The notes below the pieces were generated by a model that was not told the DNA's origin, made no database searches, and saw nothing but the letters and a program-made list of their open reading frames with translations. A program made the position numbers and the translations under genes. A stretch of 64,000 bases of DNA. Source: Rhodopirellula europaea 6C (GTDB lineage: Bacteria > Planctomycetota > Planctomycetia > Pirellulales > Pirellulaceae). The DNA lies in assembly GCF_000338295.1 (NCBI RefSeq), contig NZ_ANMO01000097.1, positions 124,001-188,000 of the forward strand, read 5' to 3'. Below, in pieces: positions 37,434-48,160 of the stretch (position 1 is the stretch's first letter; each line of letters opens with the position of its first letter).

Positions 37434-40400
37434 TCACTTCGTGGTATCGAACACAACGCACAAGTGAGTCACACCGTGACCCGATGACGCCCATTCGATC
37501 CGGTCGTCTTCGCATTTGACTTCGCCGTCGATCGATGCGGCATCGATGGATTGCATCGACACCGTGGGTGGATGGACTGCATCGCTGTGGTCTTCCCCGA
37601 GCGGACGTGAAAGGGGCGAGATCGGATGAGCGAGGGCGACTGGTTGGCAGAACCGCACGATGCCGCGAACGGATTTGCTGGTTGTCTGAATCGCTCGCAG
37701 GTGCATGACCATTCGGCCGTCATCCAACACTCCTGTCGCGACGACTTGAATGCGCATCGTCGATGGCGAGGCATGCATCAGCCACGATCCCGCGGGCACA
37801 CCTTTGCGAATCATTTGCCCATTGGGAACTTGCAACACCGTTGGGGTTCGCCAAGGTTGCATGGCGGCATCGATTGAATGCGGGACATCAAACCCGAAAG
37901 CGAATTCGTGCCAAGGCGAAAAACCGTCGGTGGCTTCGCTTGGAGAACCCGACGCATTTGCGAGGGGCAACAGTGTTTCCAGGAAACGATCTTCACTGCG
38001 GCGATGGAAGCTATTGCCGTGTGTTGCGACCAACGTTCGGCATTCGTCTTCTTCGTGGACAAATCCGAGAGGTGCGATGAAGCGTCGAGCACTCGTTCGA
38101 TGCAGCTTTTCTCGCACGATCGCTCGTACCACGGGGCTGGCACCTGGAAACGCCATTCTCAGAACGGGATGTTGGATCCAGTCCAACGAATCGTCCGCTC
38201 CGCCGGATCCCGGCGATGATGCATTCAATGTTTCAAAACGAATGCGGTATCGAACCAACCGGCTGCCGCGAACCAATTCGACTTCCGATTGCCACCTCAG
38301 CGTGTTTGATGAAACGCTCGTCGACGAATGGGGGTTTGCGTCGGCGGGCATTTCGATCGTGCCTTCCAGAGCCACAACTCCGCGAGAGATACTGTTCTCT
38401 TTTGTTTGGACCGAATTGCATTTGGCGACAACGCCTTCGGCCTTCTTTTTCGCGGGCACAAATTCAATCCGAGTCGACAAGCGGTTGCCTCGGACTTTGC
38501 CGCTGTAGACGCCTTGGATTCCGCCGTGTTCCGAGTTGATTGACAACTCCAAGAACTCGTTGCTCATTCGTTCGCCATCGACAATCGGACCAGGGCCGCG
38601 GCTCATCGATCGACCAAGCTGTTTCGCCCAGCGGATCAGCCGTGGGTTGTCGTTCTCGGCCGAGTTTGGGCGGGCACTGTTGTTGGGATCAGTCAACAAA
38701 GCTTTGGCGGCCGCGTTGGAGCTGGTCCATCGGTAACCCCATGCGGGGACGTCCAGCACCGCGTCGGTGTTTCCTTTGTCAGCGTGAGCGTGGAAGATCG
38801 AACGATCGTTGGTTGGCAATTTGCCTTTCACGATCACACGTTGACGAGTCGGGACATTGTTGCCATTGACCACCAGAACGCTTTCGGTCGGTTGTGTTTT
38901 CGCGGCGATGTTTGCGTCCGCGGAAACTTGGACGCAATCGTCCAGCCCAAGAGATTCGGCCAAGCCGTGAGTGGGATCGGTGCGTCGTGGGTTCGCCAAC
39001 ATGGACAATCCGTTGGCGTCACGCTGGGATTGCCCGCGGACCAAGGAGGCATACTGCGTCGCGGATTGCCTGGCCGCTGAGGAACCAGCACGCATTCGAT
39101 CAGCCGGCGAATCTTTCCACGATGCGGAAGACCCATGGTGATAGGGATGTTCGCCATCGATGAAGTATTCGTCGATCTTCCAAAACCGACCAAGAGCGAG
39201 CGTCCAGGTTGCGGCTCGATTCAGATCGTCGAAGCTCTCGCAACCTTTGCCAGGCCAGTGAACCAAGAGAGCCGTCGCGATTTCTCCCGCGTCGATGGCT
39301 TCACCCAATCGAGTTCCAAGGGTGAGGAACGAGGACTCGTTGTTGGCATCGACCGGTTTAGCGGTCAAAGCCTCGATTTCGTGACCGCTTTCACCAAGAA
39401 TGACTTTGGCTTCGTCACCGAATCCGGTTCCGTTGAGAAAATCAATCGGCAACAAACCGCGGCACTGCGTTTGCGATTGTCCATCGTGTTTGTGGCTGGC
39501 TAGCGCCGCGACAATTTCCGGGGTCGTGCTGCCTCCCAAACGCGCGTGCACAGCCATTGGTTGACCGACCGCACGTTGGACTTGTTCAATCGACTCCCGC
39601 AGCGACCGTTCCATTTGGTCGATCGTCAATTCATCGTAGCAAACGGTGGATGCTGGTCCGCCGCCGGCCCACGACATCGCATCGGATGCCAATCGCGATT
39701 GAAAGGCTTGCTGTACCGAGTCGTCTGATTTCAAAACCGCATCGGCGACCGCTTGGTCGACCAACGCGTTGCGAGGCGTCGACAGGATCGCTTCGGTATC
39801 GCTGGTTTTCGGTTCGGGCAGCTCCAGAAATCGATCCAGTGTCGATGGAGTCAGCAGCGTCAAATCAATCAGCGATGGATCGGACGCAAAGTAGTGGTCA
39901 CGCTCTTCCGCGAGAGCGTCAAAGCAATCATGTAGCGCCGCGGCGGTTGCTTCGGCATCGTTTCGCACCCAAGCCTCGGCGGCGTCCAGGACTCGCGTTT
40001 CGAAATAGACCTGGTCGAGGTTGCTGGTGTAGCGAAGTCGGCGGGTGAGCACCTGGATCTGCCACCACGTGTAGCTGAGTGCGAAAAAGTCGGCTTGCGA
40101 AATTTCGCGGCCCTTTTCGGTCACCAATCGGACATCGTCCAACAAAGAGGCGGATTGATTCGGCCAATTGTCGTTTGGATTCTTCTTCAGCGTGCTCGAG
40201 TCGCCGAACCAACTGGATTGGATTGACGAATTAATGAGAGCAAGCGCGTCGTTGCGGCTTTGACATCGAATTCGGACGTCACGGTGTGATTCCAGATCGA
40301 CGGTCACGCTGCGATTGTCGGAATCGGATGCCGGCAAAGAATCGCGAACGGAGGCGGTCAGTTTTGACAGGCTGGCCTCGGGAATCAGCAGCAAACGGAC

Positions 40401-40664
40401 TGGGCCATCGGTCGCGGGGTCCGATTCTGCTGATTGTGACGCTTGGTCCGGTTCCGTCAGGCTGCCGATGGGAGTCGGCGGCGAAGGCAAATCGTCCGCT
40501 CGATGCCAGGTGGGGAGCCGCCCCGCCTGAGCGAGTAGACGAGGATGCCAGGCCGCTGTCAGAGTGCCCAATAGGCTCCGAGCGGCGTCATGATCCAACC
40601 GAGAGGGGAAATCTTCGATCGTGCTGCAGGGAATTAGGACGCAACATTCGGCAAAGGACGGCAT
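37434..40664 (-). CDS. Large GH38/alpha-mannosidase-like protein, possibly degenerate
   Basis: The 1076-residue protein has no signal peptide. The last third resembles the beta-sandwich part of family 38 alpha-mannosidases: LDVPAWGYRW (the usual VPALGY motif), then SNEFLELSINSEHGGIQGVY, matching the ENxxLxVxxDPxxGGI pattern. The N-terminal part should hold the catalytic barrel; I could not find the usual AWxxD/nucleophile pattern, so it may be inactive or a variant. It precedes the kinase gene by 4 bases. The family assignment is by eye and moderate. Confidence 0.6.
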   Translation of the reverse strand: MPSFAECCVLIPCSTIEDFPSRLDHDAARSLLGTLTAAWHPRLLAQAGRLPTWHRADDLPSPPTPIGSLTEPDQASQSAESDPATDGPVRLLLIPEASLSKLTASVRDSLPASDSDNRSVTVDLESHRDVRIRCQSRNDALALINSSIQSSWFGDSSTLKKNPNDNWPNQSASLLDDVRLVTEKGREISQADFFALSYTWWQIQVLTRRLRYTSNLDQVYFETRVLDAAEAWVRNDAEATAAALHDCFDALAEERDHYFASDPSLIDLTLLTPSTLDRFLELPEPKTSDTEAILSTPRNALVDQAVADAVLKSDDSVQQAFQSRLASDAMSWAGGGPASTVCYDELTIDQMERSLRESIEQVQRAVGQPMAVHARLGGSTTPEIVAALASHKHDGQSQTQCRGLLPIDFLNGTGFGDEAKVILGESGHEIEALTAKPVDANNESSFLTLGTRLGEAIDAGEIATALLVHWPGKGCESFDDLNRAATWTLALGRFWKIDEYFIDGEHPYHHGSSASWKDSPADRMRAGSSAARQSATQYASLVRGQSQRDANGLSMLANPRRTDPTHGLAESLGLDDCVQVSADANIAAKTQPTESVLVVNGNNVPTRQRVIVKGKLPTNDRSIFHAHADKGNTDAVLDVPAWGYRWTSSNAAAKALLTDPNNSARPNSAENDNPRLIRWAKQLGRSMSRGPGPIVDGERMSNEFLELSINSEHGGIQGVYSGKVRGNRLSTRIEFVPAKKKAEGVVAKCNSVQTKENSISRGVVALEGTIEMPADANPHSSTSVSSNTLRWQSEVELVRGSRLVRYRIRFETLNASSPGSGGADDSLDWIQHPVLRMAFPGASPVVRAIVREKLHRTSARRFIAPLGFVHEEDECRTLVATHGNSFHRRSEDRFLETLLPLANASGSPSEATDGFSPWHEFAFGFDVPHSIDAAMQPWRTPTVLQVPNGQMIRKGVPAGSWLMHASPSTMRIQVVATGVLDDGRMVMHLRAIQTTSKSVRGIVRFCQPVALAHPISPLSRPLGEDHSDAVHPPTVSMQSIDAASIDGEVKCEDDRIEWASSGHGVTHLCVVFDTTK

Positions 40665-40816: not shown

Positions 40817-42976
40817 ATGGCCGGATCCGGCGGCGTTTGGGGAATTGAAATTGGTCAGAGCGCGCTCAAGGCGTTGCACTGTGTCAAACAGGGCGATGAG
40901 ATCGTTGCCGATGCCTTTGATCTGATCGAGTATCCCAAAATTTTGGGACAAGCCGATGCGGATCCGGACCAACTGATCGCCGATGCGCTGGATCAGTTGA
41001 TGCAGCGAAACGACGCGATTCGCGATCGCGTGTGCATCAGTGTTCCCGGTCAAAGCGGTCTGGCAAAGTTCTTCAAGCCACCACCGGTGGAACTGAAGAA
41101 AATCCACGACATCGTCAAGTACGAAGCCAAGACGCAAATTCCGTTTGAGTTGTCCGACGTGGTTTGGGATTACCAAACGATGCCGGGTGCCACCATCCAG
41201 GAAGGCTACGCACTGGAAAGCGAAGTCGGTCTGTTCGCGATGAAACGCGAGCAAGCTTACCGGCAACTCGCTCCGTTCAAAGATGCCGACATCGAAGTCG
41301 ACATGGTCCAGCTGACTCCGATCTCGCTCTACAACATGGTCGCGTACGACCGGTTCCACGAGCGAATCGAGAACGAATCGTTCGACCCGGATGAGCCTCC
41401 GACGTCCAGCGTCCTTTTGTCGATCGGTACCGACAGCAGTGATTTGATCGTCACGAATGGTTTCCGAATTTGGCAACGCAGCATGCCAATCGGTGGTAAC
41501 CACTTCACTCGTCAATTGACGAAAGACTTGAAACTGACGTTCGCGAAAGCGGAACACCTCAAACGCAACGCGCGTGAAGCGGTCGATCCAAAACTCGTTT
41601 TCCAAACCATGCGACCGGTCTTCAACGACTTGGTCACGGAAGTCCAACGTTCGATTGGTTTCTTCCGCAGCATCGATAAGAAGGCCGAGATCACCGAATT
41701 GCTGGTGACCGGTAACACGGTGAAGATGCCAGGTTTGGCCGCTTACCTCGGCAAGAACCTCGGCTACGAAGTCCATACGCTCGACCGATTCAATCGCTTG
41801 TCCGGCGATGATGTTCTCAGCATCCCAACTTTCCGTGACAACGCACCCACTTTCGCGGTTTGCTACGGGTTGTGTTTGCAGGGCTTGGGACTGAGCCAGA
41901 TCCACACGTCGTTGATCCCGGCGGAGATCAAGACCGAACGCATGATCCGCGCGAAGAAGCCTTGGGCTTTGGCGGGGATGGCGGCTTTGTTGCTGGGAAC
42001 GACGACCCAGTACGCACTCACCCAGCGTTCGTGGCAAACGACTCACGAAGATTTGTGGTCCGGCGCCGCCCAGGCCGTCTCGAGCATGTCGTCACACAGC
42101 TCGGATCAAAAGTCAGAGGATTCGTTGTTGGTCAGTCGCTTGACGTTTTTGAATCGTCTGGGCGAAGAGATTTCCGGAAACGCGGAACGTCGATTGGTTT
42201 GGTTGGAAGTCATCAACGCGGTCAACGCGGCGATTCCACGGGCGGAATACCCCAAGGACAAAATTCCAAGCATCAAAGAGCTGCCACTGGAAGATCGGAT
42301 CGACTTCCACATCACAGAAATCGACACCAAGTACTACGAAGACCTCGCCGAAGATTGGTACTCGGAGCGTTTGGACACTCGGTACAAAGAGGAAATGAAG
42401 AACTGGTATGACCTGATGCGAGATTCCGCGCCGCCGGAAGAACTCGCCGAGGACACCGGTCCCGAAGAAGACGGCTGGGTCATCCAGTTGAAGGGATACC
42501 ACTATTACAACAGCCCCAAACACAAGGGCGAAGAAGGCAGCCAACACGTTCGGAAGTATTTGACGACGGCGTTCCGTGAAAAACCAATCACCTTGATCGA
42601 CCCGCAAGGCAACCCGATCACGTTCACTCCAGAGGAGTTTGGTTTTAGCTACCCGATCTTGTTGAACGACAACCAACCCCAGCTGGTACAGGTGCCAAAC
42701 CCGGACTACGACCCGGTCGCTGCGATGACGGCGATGCAGTTGCGAGCCGAAGGCGACGAAGACGTCGAGGTCGAAACACAATTCCTGGAAGTGCTGCGAC
42801 TGGATTTTGTTTTCCAGGTCATTTGGAAAGAAAGCGTTTTGAGCGAACGCATCGAAGCAAAACGATTGGCGGAAGAAGAAGCTGCTGCACAAGCGGAATT
42901 GGAAGGCACTGGCGACGGATCGGGATCAGAGGACGATGTTGATGCCGATTCTGACTCAGTCGCGATGGCCAACTAG
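40817..42976 (+). CDS. PilM-PilN-like fusion protein
   Basis: The N-terminal 360 residues are a PilM actin-like ATPase. Phosphate and adenosine motifs are visible: GIEIGQSALKALHC, LSIGTDSSDLIVTNG, SMPIGGNHFTRQLTKDL and LLVTGNTVKMPGLAAYLGK. PilM is normally about 350 residues. Here the chain goes on: a membrane helix at about 381-400 (ALAGMAALLLGTTTQYAL), then ERRLVWLEVINAVNAAIP, close to the PilN pattern, and about 300 further residues ending in a coiled, acidic tail (Glu/Asp/Ser-rich). This looks like PilM and PilN in one chain, with the PilN-like part periplasmic. It starts the Met-rich operon and is divergent from the GH38-like gene. Confidence 0.85.
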   Translation: MAGSGGVWGIEIGQSALKALHCVKQGDEIVADAFDLIEYPKILGQADADPDQLIADALDQLMQRNDAIRDRVCISVPGQSGLAKFFKPPPVELKKIHDIVKYEAKTQIPFELSDVVWDYQTMPGATIQEGYALESEVGLFAMKREQAYRQLAPFKDADIEVDMVQLTPISLYNMVAYDRFHERIENESFDPDEPPTSSVLLSIGTDSSDLIVTNGFRIWQRSMPIGGNHFTRQLTKDLKLTFAKAEHLKRNAREAVDPKLVFQTMRPVFNDLVTEVQRSIGFFRSIDKKAEITELLVTGNTVKMPGLAAYLGKNLGYEVHTLDRFNRLSGDDVLSIPTFRDNAPTFAVCYGLCLQGLGLSQIHTSLIPAEIKTERMIRAKKPWALAGMAALLLGTTTQYALTQRSWQTTHEDLWSGAAQAVSSMSSHSSDQKSEDSLLVSRLTFLNRLGEEISGNAERRLVWLEVINAVNAAIPRAEYPKDKIPSIKELPLEDRIDFHITEIDTKYYEDLAEDWYSERLDTRYKEEMKNWYDLMRDSAPPEELAEDTGPEEDGWVIQLKGYHYYNSPKHKGEEGSQHVRKYLTTAFREKPITLIDPQGNPITFTPEEFGFSYPILLNDNQPQLVQVPNPDYDPVAAMTAMQLRAEGDEDVEVETQFLEVLRLDFVFQVIWKESVLSERIEAKRLAEEEAAAQAELEGTGDGSGSEDDVDADSDSVAMAN

Positions 42977-43045
42977 TTCAATACGACGGCGATCTCCTCG
43001 CCAACAACCACACACCACCTTTTCTCTCTCGACTCGGTCTGATCG

Positions 43046-44854
43046 ATGGATCAACTCAAGCAATCATTCGCTGCCGCAGCCAAGTATGGCTTTTGGATTG
43101 GCACCGGCACCATCACACTCGGTGCATTGGTGATTTGGTTTCTCGTCACCGGCGAATTGGTGGAGGAAAACAACAGTCGAACGTCAAAGATCAAAAGCGA
43201 CGTCAGCGCCGTGAAGTCGCTCAAGATGGAATTGCGCGAGCATCCCAATCAGATCTCCAAGGCAGCGATGGACTTGTTGGTGGAACGGCGACAAGCCGAG
43301 GTCCTGGAAGTCTGGCAAGAAGTCTACGACGCGCAGCGAGACATCTTGGTTTGGCCAGAGGAAGAGCTGACCACGGGACTCGTCGACGAGTTTCGTGATT
43401 TGATGCCAATCGAAACGCACATCGCATATCCGCCTGAAGATGGCCAAGAGATACCAAGTTCCTATCGGAACCAGTATGCCTACTACATCAAGAACGTTCT
43501 GCCCAGCATCGCGGAAATCGCGAAGGCTGAATGGGAAGCAGAGTTTCAATCCGCCAGTGCTGGTGGGATGGACGCCATGATGGGCGGGATGGATTCGATG
43601 ATGAGCGGCATGGATGGCATGGGCGGGTATGGCGGTATGGGACGCGGCCCTATCAACATCGCCGGTGTGGAAGATGTCCCGTTGGTGGATTGGCCGGTCA
43701 GTTCTCAGTCAGCCATCATTTCGGAGTTGTTCCCTTGGCAAGGACGCACTCCATCAACGCTGGAAGTCTACTACAGTCAAGAAAACCTCTGGATTCTGCG
43801 ACAGTTGCTGGCAATCGTCGCGGATGTCAACGGTGAGGCACAGCAACCATTCGAAGCCAAGATTCACGTGATCAACCACCTTTCGCTCGGCAAGAAGGTC
43901 AAGTTCACCGCAGGTTCCATTCAAAAACCTGGAGTCGCCATGTCGGGCGGCATGGGAGGCATGGGGATGGATATGGGCATGGACATGGGAATGGGCATGG
44001 GAGACGACATGTACGGCGGAATGGACTCTGGCGACTTGTACGGCGGAATGGATTCGGGCATGGGCACGATGTCGGAAGCTCCCGACCCGGTGGACAATCG
44101 TTACGTTGACACGACGTATGAGCCGATTGACGGAGCCACACTACGCTCCGCACTGGAAAGCGATTCGCCTGAAGACGCGCCACTGAAAGTCGCGAAGCGA
44201 GTCCCAGTCATGATGTCGTTGCAGGTTGACCAGCGTTACATTCCCGATCTGTTGGCCGCCTGCGGCAGTGCGCCACTGATGGTGGAAGTCAAGCAGGTTC
44301 GGATTCTTCCAAAATCGGCTGGTGCCAGCGCTGTCGGTGCGATGGGCGGCGGTGGCGGAATGGGCGGCGGCATGGATTCCATGATGAGCGGCGGGATGGA
44401 TATGGACATGGGCATGGACGGCGGCATGGGGATGGGTGGTGGCATGGGCATGGGTGGTGGCATGGGCATGATGGGCGGCGGTGCCAGCCAAGGCCCAAAA
44501 GAGAAGTTCCCGCTCGATGTCACCGTGGAGGTGTACGGCCTCATTCACATCTACAACCCACCTGATGAAGATAAACTCGGCGTCGAGCAAGTCACCGAAG
44601 ACACGATGTTGGATGGTGAAACCATGGCCCAGAGTGCCGAAGAGGATCTCAAGGAAGTCAGCAATGGTGCCGGAGCTGGCGCGGGGACGCAGCCCGCTGT
44701 GGACACACCCGATTCTGCTTTGCCACCGCCTGCGGCTGATCCCGATGCGACAACACCAGCCGAGGATGCGACAACTCCGGATGCAAACGAGGCTTCGCCT
44801 CAGCCAGCTGGAGAAGCCTCGGTCCCGGGTAGTTCCGCCAGCACAACGGGTTAG
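43046..44854 (+). CDS. Met-Gly-Asp-rich membrane protein, PilO-like position
   Basis: The 602-residue protein has a short cytoplasmic N-terminus, one membrane helix (about residues 13-34, WIGTGTITLGALVIWFLVTG), and a coiled-coil-like region (residues 38-80). This is the layout of PilO, and it follows a PilM-PilN-like gene by 69 bases. The extracytoplasmic part carries three Met/Gly/Asp-rich low-complexity segments (for example GGMDAMMGGMDSMM, MGMDMGMDMGMGMGDD, GMDMDMGMDGG). The end is an Ala/Pro/Thr-rich tail. I know no described family with this composition. A role in metal binding is possible but not shown. Confidence 0.8.
   Translation: MDQLKQSFAAAAKYGFWIGTGTITLGALVIWFLVTGELVEENNSRTSKIKSDVSAVKSLKMELREHPNQISKAAMDLLVERRQAEVLEVWQEVYDAQRDILVWPEEELTTGLVDEFRDLMPIETHIAYPPEDGQEIPSSYRNQYAYYIKNVLPSIAEIAKAEWEAEFQSASAGGMDAMMGGMDSMMSGMDGMGGYGGMGRGPINIAGVEDVPLVDWPVSSQSAIISELFPWQGRTPSTLEVYYSQENLWILRQLLAIVADVNGEAQQPFEAKIHVINHLSLGKKVKFTAGSIQKPGVAMSGGMGGMGMDMGMDMGMGMGDDMYGGMDSGDLYGGMDSGMGTMSEAPDPVDNRYVDTTYEPIDGATLRSALESDSPEDAPLKVAKRVPVMMSLQVDQRYIPDLLAACGSAPLMVEVKQVRILPKSAGASAVGAMGGGGGMGGGMDSMMSGGMDMDMGMDGGMGMGGGMGMGGGMGMMGGGASQGPKEKFPLDVTVEVYGLIHIYNPPDEDKLGVEQVTEDTMLDGETMAQSAEEDLKEVSNGAGAGAGTQPAVDTPDSALPPPAADPDATTPAEDATTPDANEASPQPAGEASVPGSSASTTG
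43560..43650 (+). repeat. Met/Gly/Asp-rich coding repeat 1
   Basis: The segment encodes imperfect GGMDxMM and GGMG units. It is a codon-level repeat of ATGGGC/ATGGAC type, with a coherent coding frame. Confidence 0.8.
43939..44072 (+). repeat. Met/Gly/Asp-rich coding repeat 2
   Basis: It encodes MGMDMGMDMGMGMGDDMYGG and similar, built from ATGGGCATGGAC-like units. Nearly every second residue is Met. Confidence 0.85.
44338..44484 (+). repeat. Met/Gly/Asp-rich coding repeat 3
   Basis: The segment encodes GGGMGGGMDSMMSGGMDMDM and GMGMGGGMGMGGG units. The same unit type recurs in the next gene. Confidence 0.85.
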
Positions 44855-45049
44855 CGGGTAGAACAGTTGAAGCCATGAGCAGGAATGAACTGTCAGATGC
44901 CTTTTCCGTGAAGCACTTGATGAGCCATTCCGAAGAAGATCGTGATCGTTCAGGTTGGTTGTGGCGACCATCCAACCTCGAGCACGTTTGACAAACTGAG
45001 TCGTCGCCAGCCTTTCCTTTTCTTTTTCGTTCGTGCGAGTCAAACCATC

Positions 45050-47104
45050 ATGGATGCCGACAAAATCAAACAGTTCTTCATCTTCCACGGTGAAAAATTT
45101 GTCGTCGGAATTGTTGTTCTGGCGGCTGGTTGGATGGTCTATTCCGGTCTGAACATGCCTAACATGTTGGACGAAGTCCAACCGGAGCGCCTGACGGCGG
45201 ATGCCAACACGGTTCGCGCCAGCATCGACGAAGATCACAACGAAAACATTCTGCCTGATAGAGAACCTGTTTTCGACATCCTGGCCGAAACAGCTCGTAA
45301 GCGAACGCCTGTCGATGCGACCGCCTACAAAATGCCTCACTTGCTGGAACGCAAGACCATCGACACGTCGGTACGCCGAAAAGATCCGGTCGTTCACGCA
45401 CCTCTCGATTTGCGCGTCGACAGTCACATCGCGTCAATTGCGATTTGGTCGCGAAGCGGTGAGTATCCGTTGAAGGAGCTAGAAGGCGCGGAAGCGTTGG
45501 AAGTCGTCGAGCAAGAAAAACCTCGTCCCCGTAGCCGTCGCAGTCGTCGTGGTGGCGGAATGGATGAGATGATGGGGATGGGCGAAATGGGAATGGACGG
45601 AATGGGAATGGATCAAGGAATGGGCATGGAAATGTACGGTGCCGATATGGGCATGGGCATGGATCCTGGAATGATGGGAGGCATGGAGTCCATGTCAGCA
45701 ACCGCGGCCGGTCGCCGGTTCAACGCCAAACACAATTTCGGAGCCACACCGACCTCGAAAGATAGCAAGCTACCCGTTCCGCAATACGCATGGTTCATTT
45801 CCGGGACCGCCGTGATTCCTCACAAGGCGATGGCGGAGTCGTTTCGCGAGGCACTGCAGAGTGCAGAGGGATATCTTCCGATCCGTGACCAACCTCTGTA
45901 TTTCAATTACGAGGTGCAGCGAGCGGACGTCACGAACAAGAGTGTTGATGAGTTGACGGACGAAGATTGGGTTCTTCGCTACACCCGTGAGCAAAACGTA
46001 AAGCAAGCCGCGTTTTCATGGGCGGGCTACGCGCAAGAAGTGGTGCCCGAGGAATACCGAGATCTCAACGTTACAGGCTACATTCCGCCGGTTCTACTGA
46101 TGGACTACACCGACTTCGTTACACATCCGCTGATCCCAATGGTGTCGCGACGTGAAAAGCAAATGAAGGCTCGCGAAGAGATGATGCGGGAGGAGAAGTT
46201 CGGTGCCGATGATCTTGAATTGGCCGGTCCAGGTGCCAGTGGAATGGGCGGCATGGGGATGGATATGGGCATGGACATGGGCATGGACATGGGCATGGAC
46301 ATGGGAATGGATATGCAGATGGACATGGGAATGGGAGGCATGGGATCGTACGGCGGGATGGCGATGGTCGAAGAAGATCCCGTCGATTACAAGTTGATGC
46401 GTTTCTATGACTTCGCGAGCAATCAAGATCCAAACACCCCACGCCCCGGTCGCGATTATGTGTATCGCATGCGATTGGCGGTCGTAGACCCCAACTTTCC
46501 GGCCAACGCTCTACAGCAACCAAAGGTTTCGTCACTGTCGGGAGAGGTTTATCAACGAGTTTCAAAATTGATGGAAGCTGCCGAAGCAGACAAAGATCGC
46601 AAGGGGCACTTCCAACGTTGGTCCGATTGGAGTGAACCGAGCCCCGAGATATCGTTGCCGACTTTCAATAACTATTACGCTGGTCCGGTTGAAGTTTCAC
46701 GCGTGAAGGAGTTGGACGTCGCGGGCAAGAAAGTGGAGTACTCTCCAGAGCCGCCTAAAGCGAAAGCCGTCAATCTGGGCTACAACATCCAGTACAAGAC
46801 ATCGATGCCGGTTTGGATGGAGAGTTTGGAGCCCGGTTCGGTTCTGTCCTATGAAGGACCGGCTGAGTTAATTGATCCGATTGATCTTGTTGTCAAAAAG
46901 GTGGAAGATGCGAAGATAACTTCGCAAACCACCGTGATCGATATCGATGGTGGTCGAGTGCTGCCAATGACAGGTGAATCCGAATTGGAGGAGCCTGGAA
47001 TGATGCTGCTATTCGACGAGAATGGATCGTTGAAAGTGACCGGCGAAGTGGAAGATCAAGAGATGTATCGGATCTACTCCTTTGCCGAAGAACGCGGTCT
47101 GTAA
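45050..47104 (+). CDS. Second Met-Gly-Asp-rich membrane protein, PilP-like position
   Basis: The 684-residue protein starts with a short N-terminus and one membrane helix (about residues 15-33, FVVGIVVLAAGWMVYSGLNM), then a mostly polar extracytoplasmic chain. Two Met/Gly/Asp-rich segments occur: about residues 168-215 (GMGEMGMDGMGMDQGMGMEM) and 398-440 (GMDMGMDMGMDMGMDMQMDM). It has no lipobox, unlike classic PilP. I chose ATG 45050 over the in-frame start at 44942, because the membrane helix follows directly. It lies 195 bases after the preceding gene and ends 6 bases before holA. Function unknown. Confidence 0.8.
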   Translation: MDADKIKQFFIFHGEKFVVGIVVLAAGWMVYSGLNMPNMLDEVQPERLTADANTVRASIDEDHNENILPDREPVFDILAETARKRTPVDATAYKMPHLLERKTIDTSVRRKDPVVHAPLDLRVDSHIASIAIWSRSGEYPLKELEGAEALEVVEQEKPRPRSRRSRRGGGMDEMMGMGEMGMDGMGMDQGMGMEMYGADMGMGMDPGMMGGMESMSATAAGRRFNAKHNFGATPTSKDSKLPVPQYAWFISGTAVIPHKAMAESFREALQSAEGYLPIRDQPLYFNYEVQRADVTNKSVDELTDEDWVLRYTREQNVKQAAFSWAGYAQEVVPEEYRDLNVTGYIPPVLLMDYTDFVTHPLIPMVSRREKQMKAREEMMREEKFGADDLELAGPGASGMGGMGMDMGMDMGMDMGMDMGMDMQMDMGMGGMGSYGGMAMVEEDPVDYKLMRFYDFASNQDPNTPRPGRDYVYRMRLAVVDPNFPANALQQPKVSSLSGEVYQRVSKLMEAAEADKDRKGHFQRWSDWSEPSPEISLPTFNNYYAGPVEVSRVKELDVAGKKVEYSPEPPKAKAVNLGYNIQYKTSMPVWMESLEPGSVLSYEGPAELIDPIDLVVKKVEDAKITSQTTVIDIDGGRVLPMTGESELEEPGMMLLFDENGSLKVTGEVEDQEMYRIYSFAEERGL
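45551..45693 (+). repeat. Met/Gly/Asp-rich coding repeat 4
   Basis: It encodes GGGMDEMMGMGEMGMDGMGM and similar, in the second Met-rich gene. Confidence 0.8.
46241..46365 (+). repeat. Met/Gly/Asp-rich coding repeat 5 (MDMG)n
   Basis: The purest stretch, from 46258 on, encodes consecutive MDMG units through ATGGACATGGGC repeats. The unit is almost identical to repeat 2 of the previous gene. Confidence 0.9.
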
Positions 47105-47110
47105 TAGCGA

Positions 47111-48160
47111 ATGCCACGATTCAACGCCTTTGAATACCTTTCCTCGCCCGACTCTACTCAGGCGGGAAGTTCCATCGGCGTTGTTTACGGTGTCGATAGC
47201 ACGCTAAGAAAATGGGCAATCGATGCGATTGTCGGTGACAGCGAATGGACGCAAGTCGACGGCGAGGTTTGCAAGTGGTCGGATCTGCGCGACGATCTCG
47301 CCACGGCATCCTTGTTCGATTTCGACGGCGGTGACAAACGAACTCTCGTGGTTCGTTCCGCGGACAAGTTTTTATCTAATCATCGGCCTGAGATTGAAAA
47401 GTACGTGTCCGCCCCGGGTGATGCCACCCGGTTCGTTCTCGAACTGGAATCACTTGCCAGCAACACTCGTGTTTACAAAGCGGTCGACAAGGCTCATTTG
47501 CTGGTGGCTTGCACCAGTGCAACGGACGCGAAACTCGGCATCACCGCGGCATCACGCCGGAAGTTTCTAACTTCGTTTGTTGCCGATCGCCACAAAACGC
47601 AACTCGCTCCCGCCGCGGCGGACGCCTTGGTGGAGATGTTGGGCGAGGAGATCGGCATGCTGGATACGGAGATCGCGAAACTTGCGTTGTACGTCGACGT
47701 TGGCGGAAAGATTGAAGAACCTCTCGTTCGAGATGTTGTGGCCGGATGGCAGGGTAAAACCGTTTGGCAGATCACTGACGCAATCGCTGCCGGTGACGCA
47801 GCCGAAGCGTTGCGACAACTCGACAAACTCTTCAGCGGTGGGCAACGCGCGATCGCGTTGCTGCCTCAGATCGCGTGGTCTTTGCGACGTCTAGGAATGA
47901 CCACAGCAGCCATCGAATATCGCGAACGAAGCGGTCGTCCCTGGCAGTTCGAGGACGCATTGGCCGCCGGCGGAATTCGTCGTGGATTTGAAGTGCAGTC
48001 TGCGAAAAAGCAACTGCAGTCGATCGGCCGTGAAAGAGCCAAGCAATTGTTGCCTTGGCTGCTCGACGCCGACCTGCGTTTGAAGGGCACGCACAGTGCC
48101 GAAGGACGCGACCGATTCTTGCTCGAACAATTGATTCTAAAGCTAGCTCGGCAAAGCTGA
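47111..48160 (+). CDS. holA: DNA polymerase III subunit delta
   Basis: The delta subunit opens the beta sliding clamp in the clamp-loader complex. The 349-residue length and layout fit HolA: an N-terminal AAA-like domain without a functional P-loop (YGVDSTLRKWAIDAI, then SLFDFDGGDKRTLVVRSADKF), the segment KAVDKAHLLVACTS, a central helical domain, and a C-terminal domain with AAEALRQLDKLFSGGQRAIA and LLPQIAWSLRRL. It lies 6 bases after the second Met-rich gene, so it may be read from the same transcript. The 3' end is 14 bases from the convergent kinase gene. Confidence 0.9.
   Translation: MPRFNAFEYLSSPDSTQAGSSIGVVYGVDSTLRKWAIDAIVGDSEWTQVDGEVCKWSDLRDDLATASLFDFDGGDKRTLVVRSADKFLSNHRPEIEKYVSAPGDATRFVLELESLASNTRVYKAVDKAHLLVACTSATDAKLGITAASRRKFLTSFVADRHKTQLAPAAADALVEMLGEEIGMLDTEIAKLALYVDVGGKIEEPLVRDVVAGWQGKTVWQITDAIAAGDAAEALRQLDKLFSGGQRAIALLPQIAWSLRRLGMTTAAIEYRERSGRPWQFEDALAAGGIRRGFEVQSAKKQLQSIGRERAKQLLPWLLDADLRLKGTHSAEGRDRFLLEQLILKLARQS

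Follow-up and report, generated by a model that had tools for sequence, protein, structure and literature searches.

The window analysed here is a stretch of 64,000 nucleotides from Rhodopirellula europaea 6C (G000:C97:124001-188000; genome of 7.19 Mb), and this study concerns three consecutive genes on its forward strand, termed pilMN, P2 and P3 (Table 1). An initial annotation, made from the letters alone, had regarded the three genes as a rebuilt alignment complex of a type IV pilus-like machine, namely a PilM-PilN fusion followed by two methionine (Met)-rich membrane proteins in the positions of PilO and PilP. The third open reading frame (ORF) was listed from a GTG at 44942; in relatives the start corresponds to the ATG at 45050, which leaves the GTG start unsupported, and we take the range given in Table 1 as the likely one for P3 from this sequence comparison.

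Table 1. Features of the pilMN-P2-P3 locus (positions are those of the window)
Feature	Positions	Strand	Residues	Remarks
PilMN fusion	40817..42976	+	719 aa	ATG start; PilM domain and PilN-like tail
Actin-like PilM domain	40841..41881	+	9-355	PF11104, E 3.3e-28; TIGR01175 above cut-off
PilN-like segment	41909..42973	+		SLIPAE motif (365-370), membrane helix (about 384-403), tail
P2	43046..44854	+	602 aa	ATG start; PilO/Amuc_1100-like by predicted fold and hhalign
P2 Met/Gly loop 1	43538..43666	+	165-207	9 Met; pLDDT <50 at 167-173 and 189-207
P2 Met/Gly loop 2	43889..44080	+	282-345	14 Met; links the first core strand to the second
P2 Met/Gly loop 3	44312..44515	+	423-490	16 Met; links the final pair of core strands
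P3	45050..47104	+	684 aa	Fibronectin-III protein in the PilP position
Fibronectin-III domain of P3	45386..46666	+	113-539	Predicted; interrupted by two long loops; basis, VIA fold match
P3 Met-rich loop	45443..45778	+	132-243	18 Met
P3 Met-rich loop	45992..46390	+	315-447	23 Met

The locus was compared with 27 fetched loci from the own family and order (L033-L059, of which L058 is cut short by its contig end), 40 stretches from across the phylum, four of which are of the own family or order (L117-L156), and 80 kept loci (L160-L239), all planctomycete except L185 and L201 (uncultured bacterium) and L221 (Actinomycetota). Verrucomicrobia were not reached among the 80 loci, and the comparison with Akkermansia made below thus rests on family models and solved structures. 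A set of relatives comprised 60 genomes, that of R. europaea 6C included, and a PilMN profile was searched against 392 genomes of the phylum with a threshold of E 1e-20. Other planctomycetes from this family or order also possess a separate kind of operon, with genes for an unfused PilM, a PilN-like, a PilO/GspM-type and a GspC-like protein and a secretin (L062, L063, L064, L065, L067 and L069). We dropped the idea that these are classic PilM-N-O-P-Q operons, as their PilN-like proteins were weak PilN matches, under the cut-off, in two of the three scanned and the protein in the PilP position is GspC/T2SSB-like.

The first gene is a single ORF in which the PilM domain runs on into a membrane helix and a further segment, as annotated at first. 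PilM_2 (PF11104) matches with 99 bits (cut-off 27), and TIGR01175 (pilM) covers residues 7-356 with 137.8 bits (cut-off 133), which places this domain in the PilM family. Past this domain, the chain continues via SLIPAEIKTERMIRAKKPW into the membrane helix and then the tail, and the relatives share a conserved LLPxE at the same place, followed by KKP and the helix. The top NCBIfam model is NF045709, the Amuc_1101 family, of which the match (E 4.6e-52, residues 46-476) extends beyond the membrane helix; the same model ranked first in three relatives (E 1.9e-75, 4e-66 and 5e-58; 254.9, 224.1 and 197.3 bits). PilN contacts PilM through its N-terminal INLLP peptide, and the fusion point is thus the meeting place of the two proteins in ordinary pili. 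The PilN-like character of the extension, claimed in the initial annotation, is supported, though weakly by profile: even at E 10, Pfam PilN did not match the window protein, and hhalign between the tail and the PilN-like protein of the other operons reached 30% (E 5e-4) over the motif and helix.

The fused frame of at least 500 residues was found in 74 of the 76 homologous ORFs among the 80 kept loci, both exceptions being situated at the end of a contig. In a FastTree phylogeny of 111 PilM domains, the 102 fused versions were separated from six unfused and three other PilM proteins with a support of 0.94, the three odd ones branching between the fused and unfused sets. The split is compatible with a single PilM-PilN fusion event. 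Apart from pilMN, the genome of R. europaea 6C carries an orphan PilM-like gene on contig C271 (L060 9257-11452), the product of which has 731 residues, starts with a double zinc ribbon and matches PilM weakly in its PilM half; it adjoins unrelated enzymes and has a match of equal length in G004 (L061).

Both P2 and P3 begin with a single membrane helix, in agreement with the initial annotation. In the AlphaFold2 model of P2 (44 rows; mean predicted local distance difference test [pLDDT] 67.9, predicted template modelling score [pTM] 0.60), a long helix of residues 15-63 and a second one of residues 69-98 precede a core of alpha-beta-beta-alpha-beta-beta order, which agrees with the PilO fold of a single helix, a coiled coil and a permuted ferredoxin-like core. 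The first 14 ranks of a Foldseek search of this model against PDB were occupied by ten Amuc_1100 chains and four PilO chains. VIA-align, which here re-scored the 97 chains of Foldseek's own list and the makers of which warn that long helices raise Z, gave Z 11.4 (181 residues, root-mean-square deviation [rmsd] 7.8), 10.9 (164 residues, rmsd 3.7) and 10.5 (172 residues, rmsd 3.9) for Amuc_1100, Z 6.6 (125 residues, rmsd 4.8) for PilO (2rjz) and 5.6 for the first unrelated chain. P2 is therefore structurally similar to the Amuc_1100 structures 6lad, 6laf and 6kny by its predicted fold.

In several distant lineages P2 and P3 are compact, at about 280-390 residues each; other lineages, L132 and L135 for example, have longer ones. 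The compact proteins assisted the profile comparisons. The compact P2 aligned by hhalign with the window-type P2 at 97.5% and with the PilO/GspM-type protein of the other operons at 85.8% (E 5e-6), against 0.5% with the PilN-like and 1.2% with the GspC-like protein of the same operons; the PilO/GspM-type protein exceeded the Pfam PilO cut-off in all of the three scanned. Together with the predicted fold, this alignment bears out the PilO-like nature that the initial annotation had assigned to the second protein. The Amuc_1100 model (NF038287) matched six of 44 P2 proteins at E 0.1 (best E 2.8e-4), the window P2 not among them, and the GspM model matched three of the 44 (best E 0.0012), while neither the window P2, against Pfam and NCBIfam, nor the three compact P2 scanned matched a PilO sequence family. 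No credible pilus match was obtained among PDB sequences with a P2 profile of 27 rows or a compact-P2 profile of nine rows: the top match of the latter was a designed protein (E 0.0012). A wider P2 profile put Myxococcus PilO (E 0.021) behind the coiled coil of ATP synthase b (E 0.0047).

As for P3, its placement as PilP found no support, since a comparison of 42 P3 proteins with Pfam at E 0.1 gave matches to 18 families with no PilP among them, and the predicted fold is that of fibronectin III (Fn3). In the AlphaFold2 model (42 rows; mean pLDDT 61.3, pTM 0.51), VIA superposed P3 on the titin Fn3 domain 2nzi with Z 9.5 (95 residues, rmsd 2.2), although Foldseek returned no significant match (best E 0.4). 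Pfam fn3 matched the compact relative L152 above the cut-off (E 1.9e-7) and eight of 42 P3 members at E 0.1; a compact-P3 profile of five rows retrieved a titin chain (E 6.5e-10), and the compact and window-type P3 were aligned at 97.9% by hhalign. We read the window P3 as a putative Fn3 protein because of the VIA score, the fn3 matches of its relatives and the link between the compact and window-type profiles. A P3 profile of 26 rows found no credible pilus match among PDB sequences. Against the protein in the PilP position of the other operons, P3 reached 1.35%, that protein being GspC/T2SSB-like and so not a true PilP control, for which reason PilP is unsupported for P3 but not disproved. 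Duplicated P3-like genes were seen after the operon in the compact loci L163 and L164.

The Met residues are concentrated: 39 of the 48 in P2 (602 residues) fall in three loops and 41 of the 56 in P3 (684 residues) in two loops of about 110 and 130 residues, the latter sited between strands of the Fn3 fold. The runs rich in Met and glycine (Gly) in P2 are mostly at pLDDT <50, and we regard them as disordered loops inserted between the strands of the folds, as modelled. The initial annotation had spoken of periplasmic parts that became Met/Gly/Asp-rich; Met/Gly runs do occur in some lineages, but the compact P2 and P3 of several distant ones do without them.

Genes of the size of P2 and P3 lie downstream of pilMN in 26 of the 27 loci of the family and order (by position), and BLAST with the window proteins detected P2 in 24 of these loci and P3 in 21. 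Among the 40 phylum-wide stretches, models at E 0.01 found P2 in 28, P3 in 32 and a secretin in 10. Twenty-eight of the 80 kept loci extend at least 8.2 kb past pilMN, and these showed PilMN-P2-P3-secretin (17 loci), PilMN-P2-secretin (five) or PilMN-P3-secretin (one), the remaining five being without a secretin (two PilMN-P2-P3, one PilMN-P2 and two PilMN alone). The PilMN-P2-P3 arrangement is not due to chance. PilM_2 matched 59 of the 60 genomes of the relatives set, and the PilMN profile matched 288 of the 392 genomes of the phylum, some of which, with short coverage and an E close to 1e-20, may represent PilM proteins of another type. Candidatus Uabimicrobium amorphum (L149/L177), a planctomycete that engulfs other cells, has PilMN, P2 and the secretin in a compact run, with no P3 recognised by the models.

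A gene of more than 1000 codons follows in eight of the 26 family/order loci, and all five scanned carry a secretin domain. Its counterpart in the genome of R. europaea 6C is an ORF of 1161 residues on contig C80 (L157; E 2.8e-207), beside a DNA ligase gene. With the secretin profile, every genome of the relatives set (60 of 60) gave a match of E 1e-60 or better, those in G046 and G027 being partial only. Where the secretin is linked to pilMN, it lies downstream on the same strand in 10 of 11 genomes and upstream in one (G015). The Amuc_1098 model was the best one for the compact secretins of L161 (E 1.1e-25) and L185 (E 2.5e-29), and the third for those of L143 and L155. A second secretin-like gene was noticed after the operon in the compact loci L235 and L156.

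As for the remaining parts of a pilus, for which the initial annotation had advised a look elsewhere in the genome, not only the secretin but also PilB-type ATPases (11 matches), PilT and PilC (18 domain match pieces) are present. A cluster on contig C114 (L240) encodes a PilT (439 bits; cut-off 319), a PilB (TIGR02538, E 8e-181; 602 bits, under the cut-off of 676), a second PilB-type ATPase, PilC and two proteins with a prepilin-type N-terminus. The PilB at L240 12178-14565 bears an N-terminal extension of about 200 residues, and its residues 221-269 resemble the MshE-type cyclic di-GMP-binding motif (36.3 of 38 bits, just under the cut-off). PilB-PilT-PilB sets were found in the fetched stretches of G013, G038, G041 and G043; that of G004 held one PilB-type ATPase and PilC only. 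G043 (3.0 Mb, 96% complete) has pilMN, P2 and P3 in a row, a PilT above the family cut-off and PilB-PilT-PilB. The sole PilM match in this genome is the fusion protein, with Amuc_1101 as its best model, and the two secretin match pieces fall in one ORF, the partner secretin. As the assembly lacks any other PilM or secretin, the PilMN complex is the best candidate there for the partner of the PilT-type motor. A retractable type IV pilus is thus the most likely machine for the complex to serve, and G043 provides the strongest argument for it.

Altogether, we propose with good confidence that pilMN, P2 and P3 code for the alignment subcomplex in the inner membrane of an Akkermansia-type (Amuc_1098-1101) type IV pilus machine. 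The view of the locus as the inner part of such a machine, taken already in the initial annotation, is upheld by the PilM/PilN-like fusion and the PilO-like P2. With PilM and the PilN-like part in one polypeptide, the cytoplasmic actin-like ring would be tied covalently to the membrane and periplasm. P2 would stand in place of PilO, and P3 would take the place of PilP, probably bridging to the giant secretin, which is the fourth gene in relatives and is encoded elsewhere here. A pilin fibre might then pass through this conduit, extended by PilB and retracted by PilT, a pairing that we infer. A likely use of the machine, as has been proposed for the Akkermansia locus, would be in attaching to surfaces or polysaccharides, perhaps also pulling these inwards.

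Several observations weigh against this proposal. The window P2 and P3 have no meaningful match in Pfam or NCBIfam, Fn3 by sequence included; the Foldseek matches of P2 are all above E 0.001 (best E 0.13, probability 0.98), and the VIA scores are subject to the origin of the re-scored list and to the effect of long helices mentioned above. The PilN-like tail fits the PilO/GspM-type profile (24%) nearly as well as the PilN-like one. The secretin of R. europaea 6C scored best on the GspD (E 2.5e-27) and PilQ (E 2.6e-27) models and only fifth on Amuc_1098 (E 5.3e-16), and that of G043 behaves likewise. The secretin gene is also unlinked to pilMN in the genome of R. europaea 6C: the two are at most 15 kb apart in 11 of 59 genomes, none of which is among the 13 of the own genus, and we conclude that this lineage has split the operon. 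With regard to the motor, other genomes possess a PilM, a PilO/GspM-type protein and a secretin in the separate operon as well, and R. europaea 6C has a GspD-E-F-type cluster, which makes the motor partner uncertain there. In G043, 4% of the genome may be missing, and further PilB/PilT-like ATPases are encoded in addition to its cluster; G038 has a secretin and PilT with no PilM match.

Finally, the planctomycete scores are far under the curated cut-offs of the Akkermansia families: 177.7 bits against 650 for the window PilMN (NF045709), 17.1 bits against 180 for P2 of L143 (NF038287), and 57.8 and 101.9 bits against 750 for the secretins of R. europaea 6C and L185 (NF042912). Since no score reaches these cut-offs, we regard the planctomycete complex as a relative, not a member, of the Akkermansia families, judged by sequence scores. 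The Akkermansia cluster Amuc_1098-1102 (MUL2), in which amuc_1099-1102 were assigned to MUL2 with amuc_1101 as a PilM protein and amuc_1102 as pilin-like (PMC13174399), nevertheless resembles the planctomycete loci in the PilM-like protein with a family model reaching past the membrane helix, in the Amuc_1100 fold of P2, in having the same protein types in one operon among relatives, and in a secretin in fourth place, with TPR repeats in the compact relatives L143 and L155. It differs in that the window proteins are inflated by Met/Gly loops and their secretin is unlinked and without a TPR match at E 0.01. With PilMNOPQ of type IVa pili, the planctomycete complex shares the PilM domain, the PilN-like motif and helix, the PilO-like fold and the secretin, but PilM is fused to the PilN-like part and forms a separate branch, and P3 is an Fn3 protein without a PilP match.

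The NCBIfam models treat the Akkermansia members as a pilus complex, and this kind of machine was thus already known. Among the publication matches listed, those naming both Amuc_1100 and planctomycetes included none that dealt, by title or abstract, with a planctomycete counterpart, and none of those listed described in title or abstract a PilM fusion in Planctomycetes. What is new is the planctomycete version, with a fused PilM, an Amuc_1100-like P2, an Fn3 protein at the place of PilP and Met-rich insertions.

What the machine does is less clear. It may be an ordinary type IV pilus that works in attachment or in the uptake of DNA alone, importing no macromolecules, with Met-rich loops that are neutral low-complexity drift; we hold this quite possible while leaning slightly against it. 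Its core parts are the standard parts of a pilus, MUL2 itself has been described as likely aiding attachment (PMC13174399), and PMC11131199 cites adhesion of a planctomycete to chitin by type IV pili. On the other hand, the related Akkermansia loci were reported to be active in mucin transport (PMC13174399). Met composition can be argued both ways. The Met content varies from 0.7% to 8.0% across 43 large P2 proteins, as drift would allow, and over 74 loci P2 and P3 co-vary in Met with a Spearman coefficient of 0.78, in which ancestry is still contained and some start sites are untrimmed. Lysine behaves alike over the same loci (0.81 between P2 and P3; 0.74 and 0.72 with PilMN), and general composition thus explains part, and may explain much, of the Met co-variation. 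Against drift alone, the 43 loci with a large P2 gave 0.87 for Met between P2 and P3, compared with 0.52 and 0.63 for P2 and P3 with PilMN, again with ancestry included.

A bolder suggestion, tentative and in our judgement unlikely, is that the complex and giant secretin form an outer-to-inner membrane machine at the crateriform structures, in which PilT-driven fibres would capture and pull polysaccharides through the secretin into the periplasm; Akkermansia would use the same uptake route, the origin of which would precede both phyla, and the Met/Gly loops would be a soft, co-evolving lining of the conduit. Glycan storage of A. muciniphila depends on mul genes, and fucoidan is taken up by marine relatives (PMC13174399). 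PMC5394234 reports that dextran enters the periplasm of Planctopirus and Gemmata, in the latter not after treatment with carbonyl cyanide m-chlorophenylhydrazone (CCCP), that gold-dextran attaches to 12-nm fibres carried by large crateriform structures, and that these structures resemble press-stud links joining both membranes, the authors only speculating on the mechanism. Later, the bases of planctomycete appendages were likened to the Thermus type IV pilus apparatus and a role in nutrient uptake was suggested (PMC8303584); the general idea is thus in print, and the genes are what we add. The route of dextran and other large sugars across the planctomycete outer membrane is described as open in PMC5394234 and PMC11131199. 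In the laboratory strain Planctopirus limnophila, deletion mutants have been published for three pilQ-like genes, Plim_0794, Plim_3284 and Plim_3688 (PMC11958385). The complex possesses the components that an uptake machine of this sort would require. Linking the present genes to polysaccharide uptake and crateriform structures is conjectural, and rather doubtful.

In our view, the three genes are quite unlikely to provide the inner complex for a type II-like system secreting DUF1559 pseudopilins or enzymes rather than for a retractable pilus. DUF1559 match pieces are abundant (79 in the genome of R. europaea 6C and 27 in G043, where the complex holds the sole secretin), and these pseudopilins, brought up already in the initial annotation, are a possible cargo. 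The equal scores of the R. europaea 6C secretin on the GspD and PilQ models, the GspM matches among P2 proteins and the PilO/GspM-like character of the very PilO profile that resembles P2 fit such a system as well. GspL/GspM/GspC/GspD of the type II secretion system (T2SS) and the separate operons are alike in principle in architecture, and P2 aligns with the PilO/GspM-type protein of the latter. However, P2 ranks Amuc_1100 and PilO first, no relation was detected between P3 and the GspC-like protein of the separate operons, and PilMN and P2 match Akkermansia pilus proteins better than any T2SS protein. In addition, the T2SS-type cluster of R. europaea 6C has its own GspD-like gene (with six Secretin_N repeats) beside GspE and GspF, and PilT, a protein of retractable pili, exceeds the family cut-off in G043, of which the only PilM and secretin belong to this complex. 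That the genes encode an unrelated membrane assembly with a superficial resemblance to pili, as the weak sequence scores of P2, P3 and the PilN-like tail might suggest, is very improbable in light of the 288 genomes matched by the PilMN profile, the gene order kept with the secretin and the fold of P2.

On the reading as an Akkermansia-type pilus machine, the three genes and the secretin are a compact and widespread set that is now named and can be deleted to test the uptake of large sugars by planctomycetes, and we regard the set as a candidate for a machine pulling such sugars into the cells. Amuc_1100, studied as a probiotic factor, is placed beside a PilO-like family reaching far beyond the gut, and this PilO-like kinship bears on the role of Amuc_1100 in its own cell.

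Regarding the neighbouring genes, holA (47111-48160) was considered as a member of the operon and rejected, as BLAST located it beside P3 in only four of the 27 family/order loci, those of the close relatives L033-L036. A DUF1559 protein is encoded in the same window at about 1921-2952 (G000:C97:125921-126952). Upstream of pilMN, a divergent gene on the minus strand (37434-40664) encodes a protein of 1076 residues without a family match; BLAST placed it beside pilMN in 19 of the 27 loci, and in several loci it appears, by eye, to adjoin a putative cytidylate kinase-like gene.

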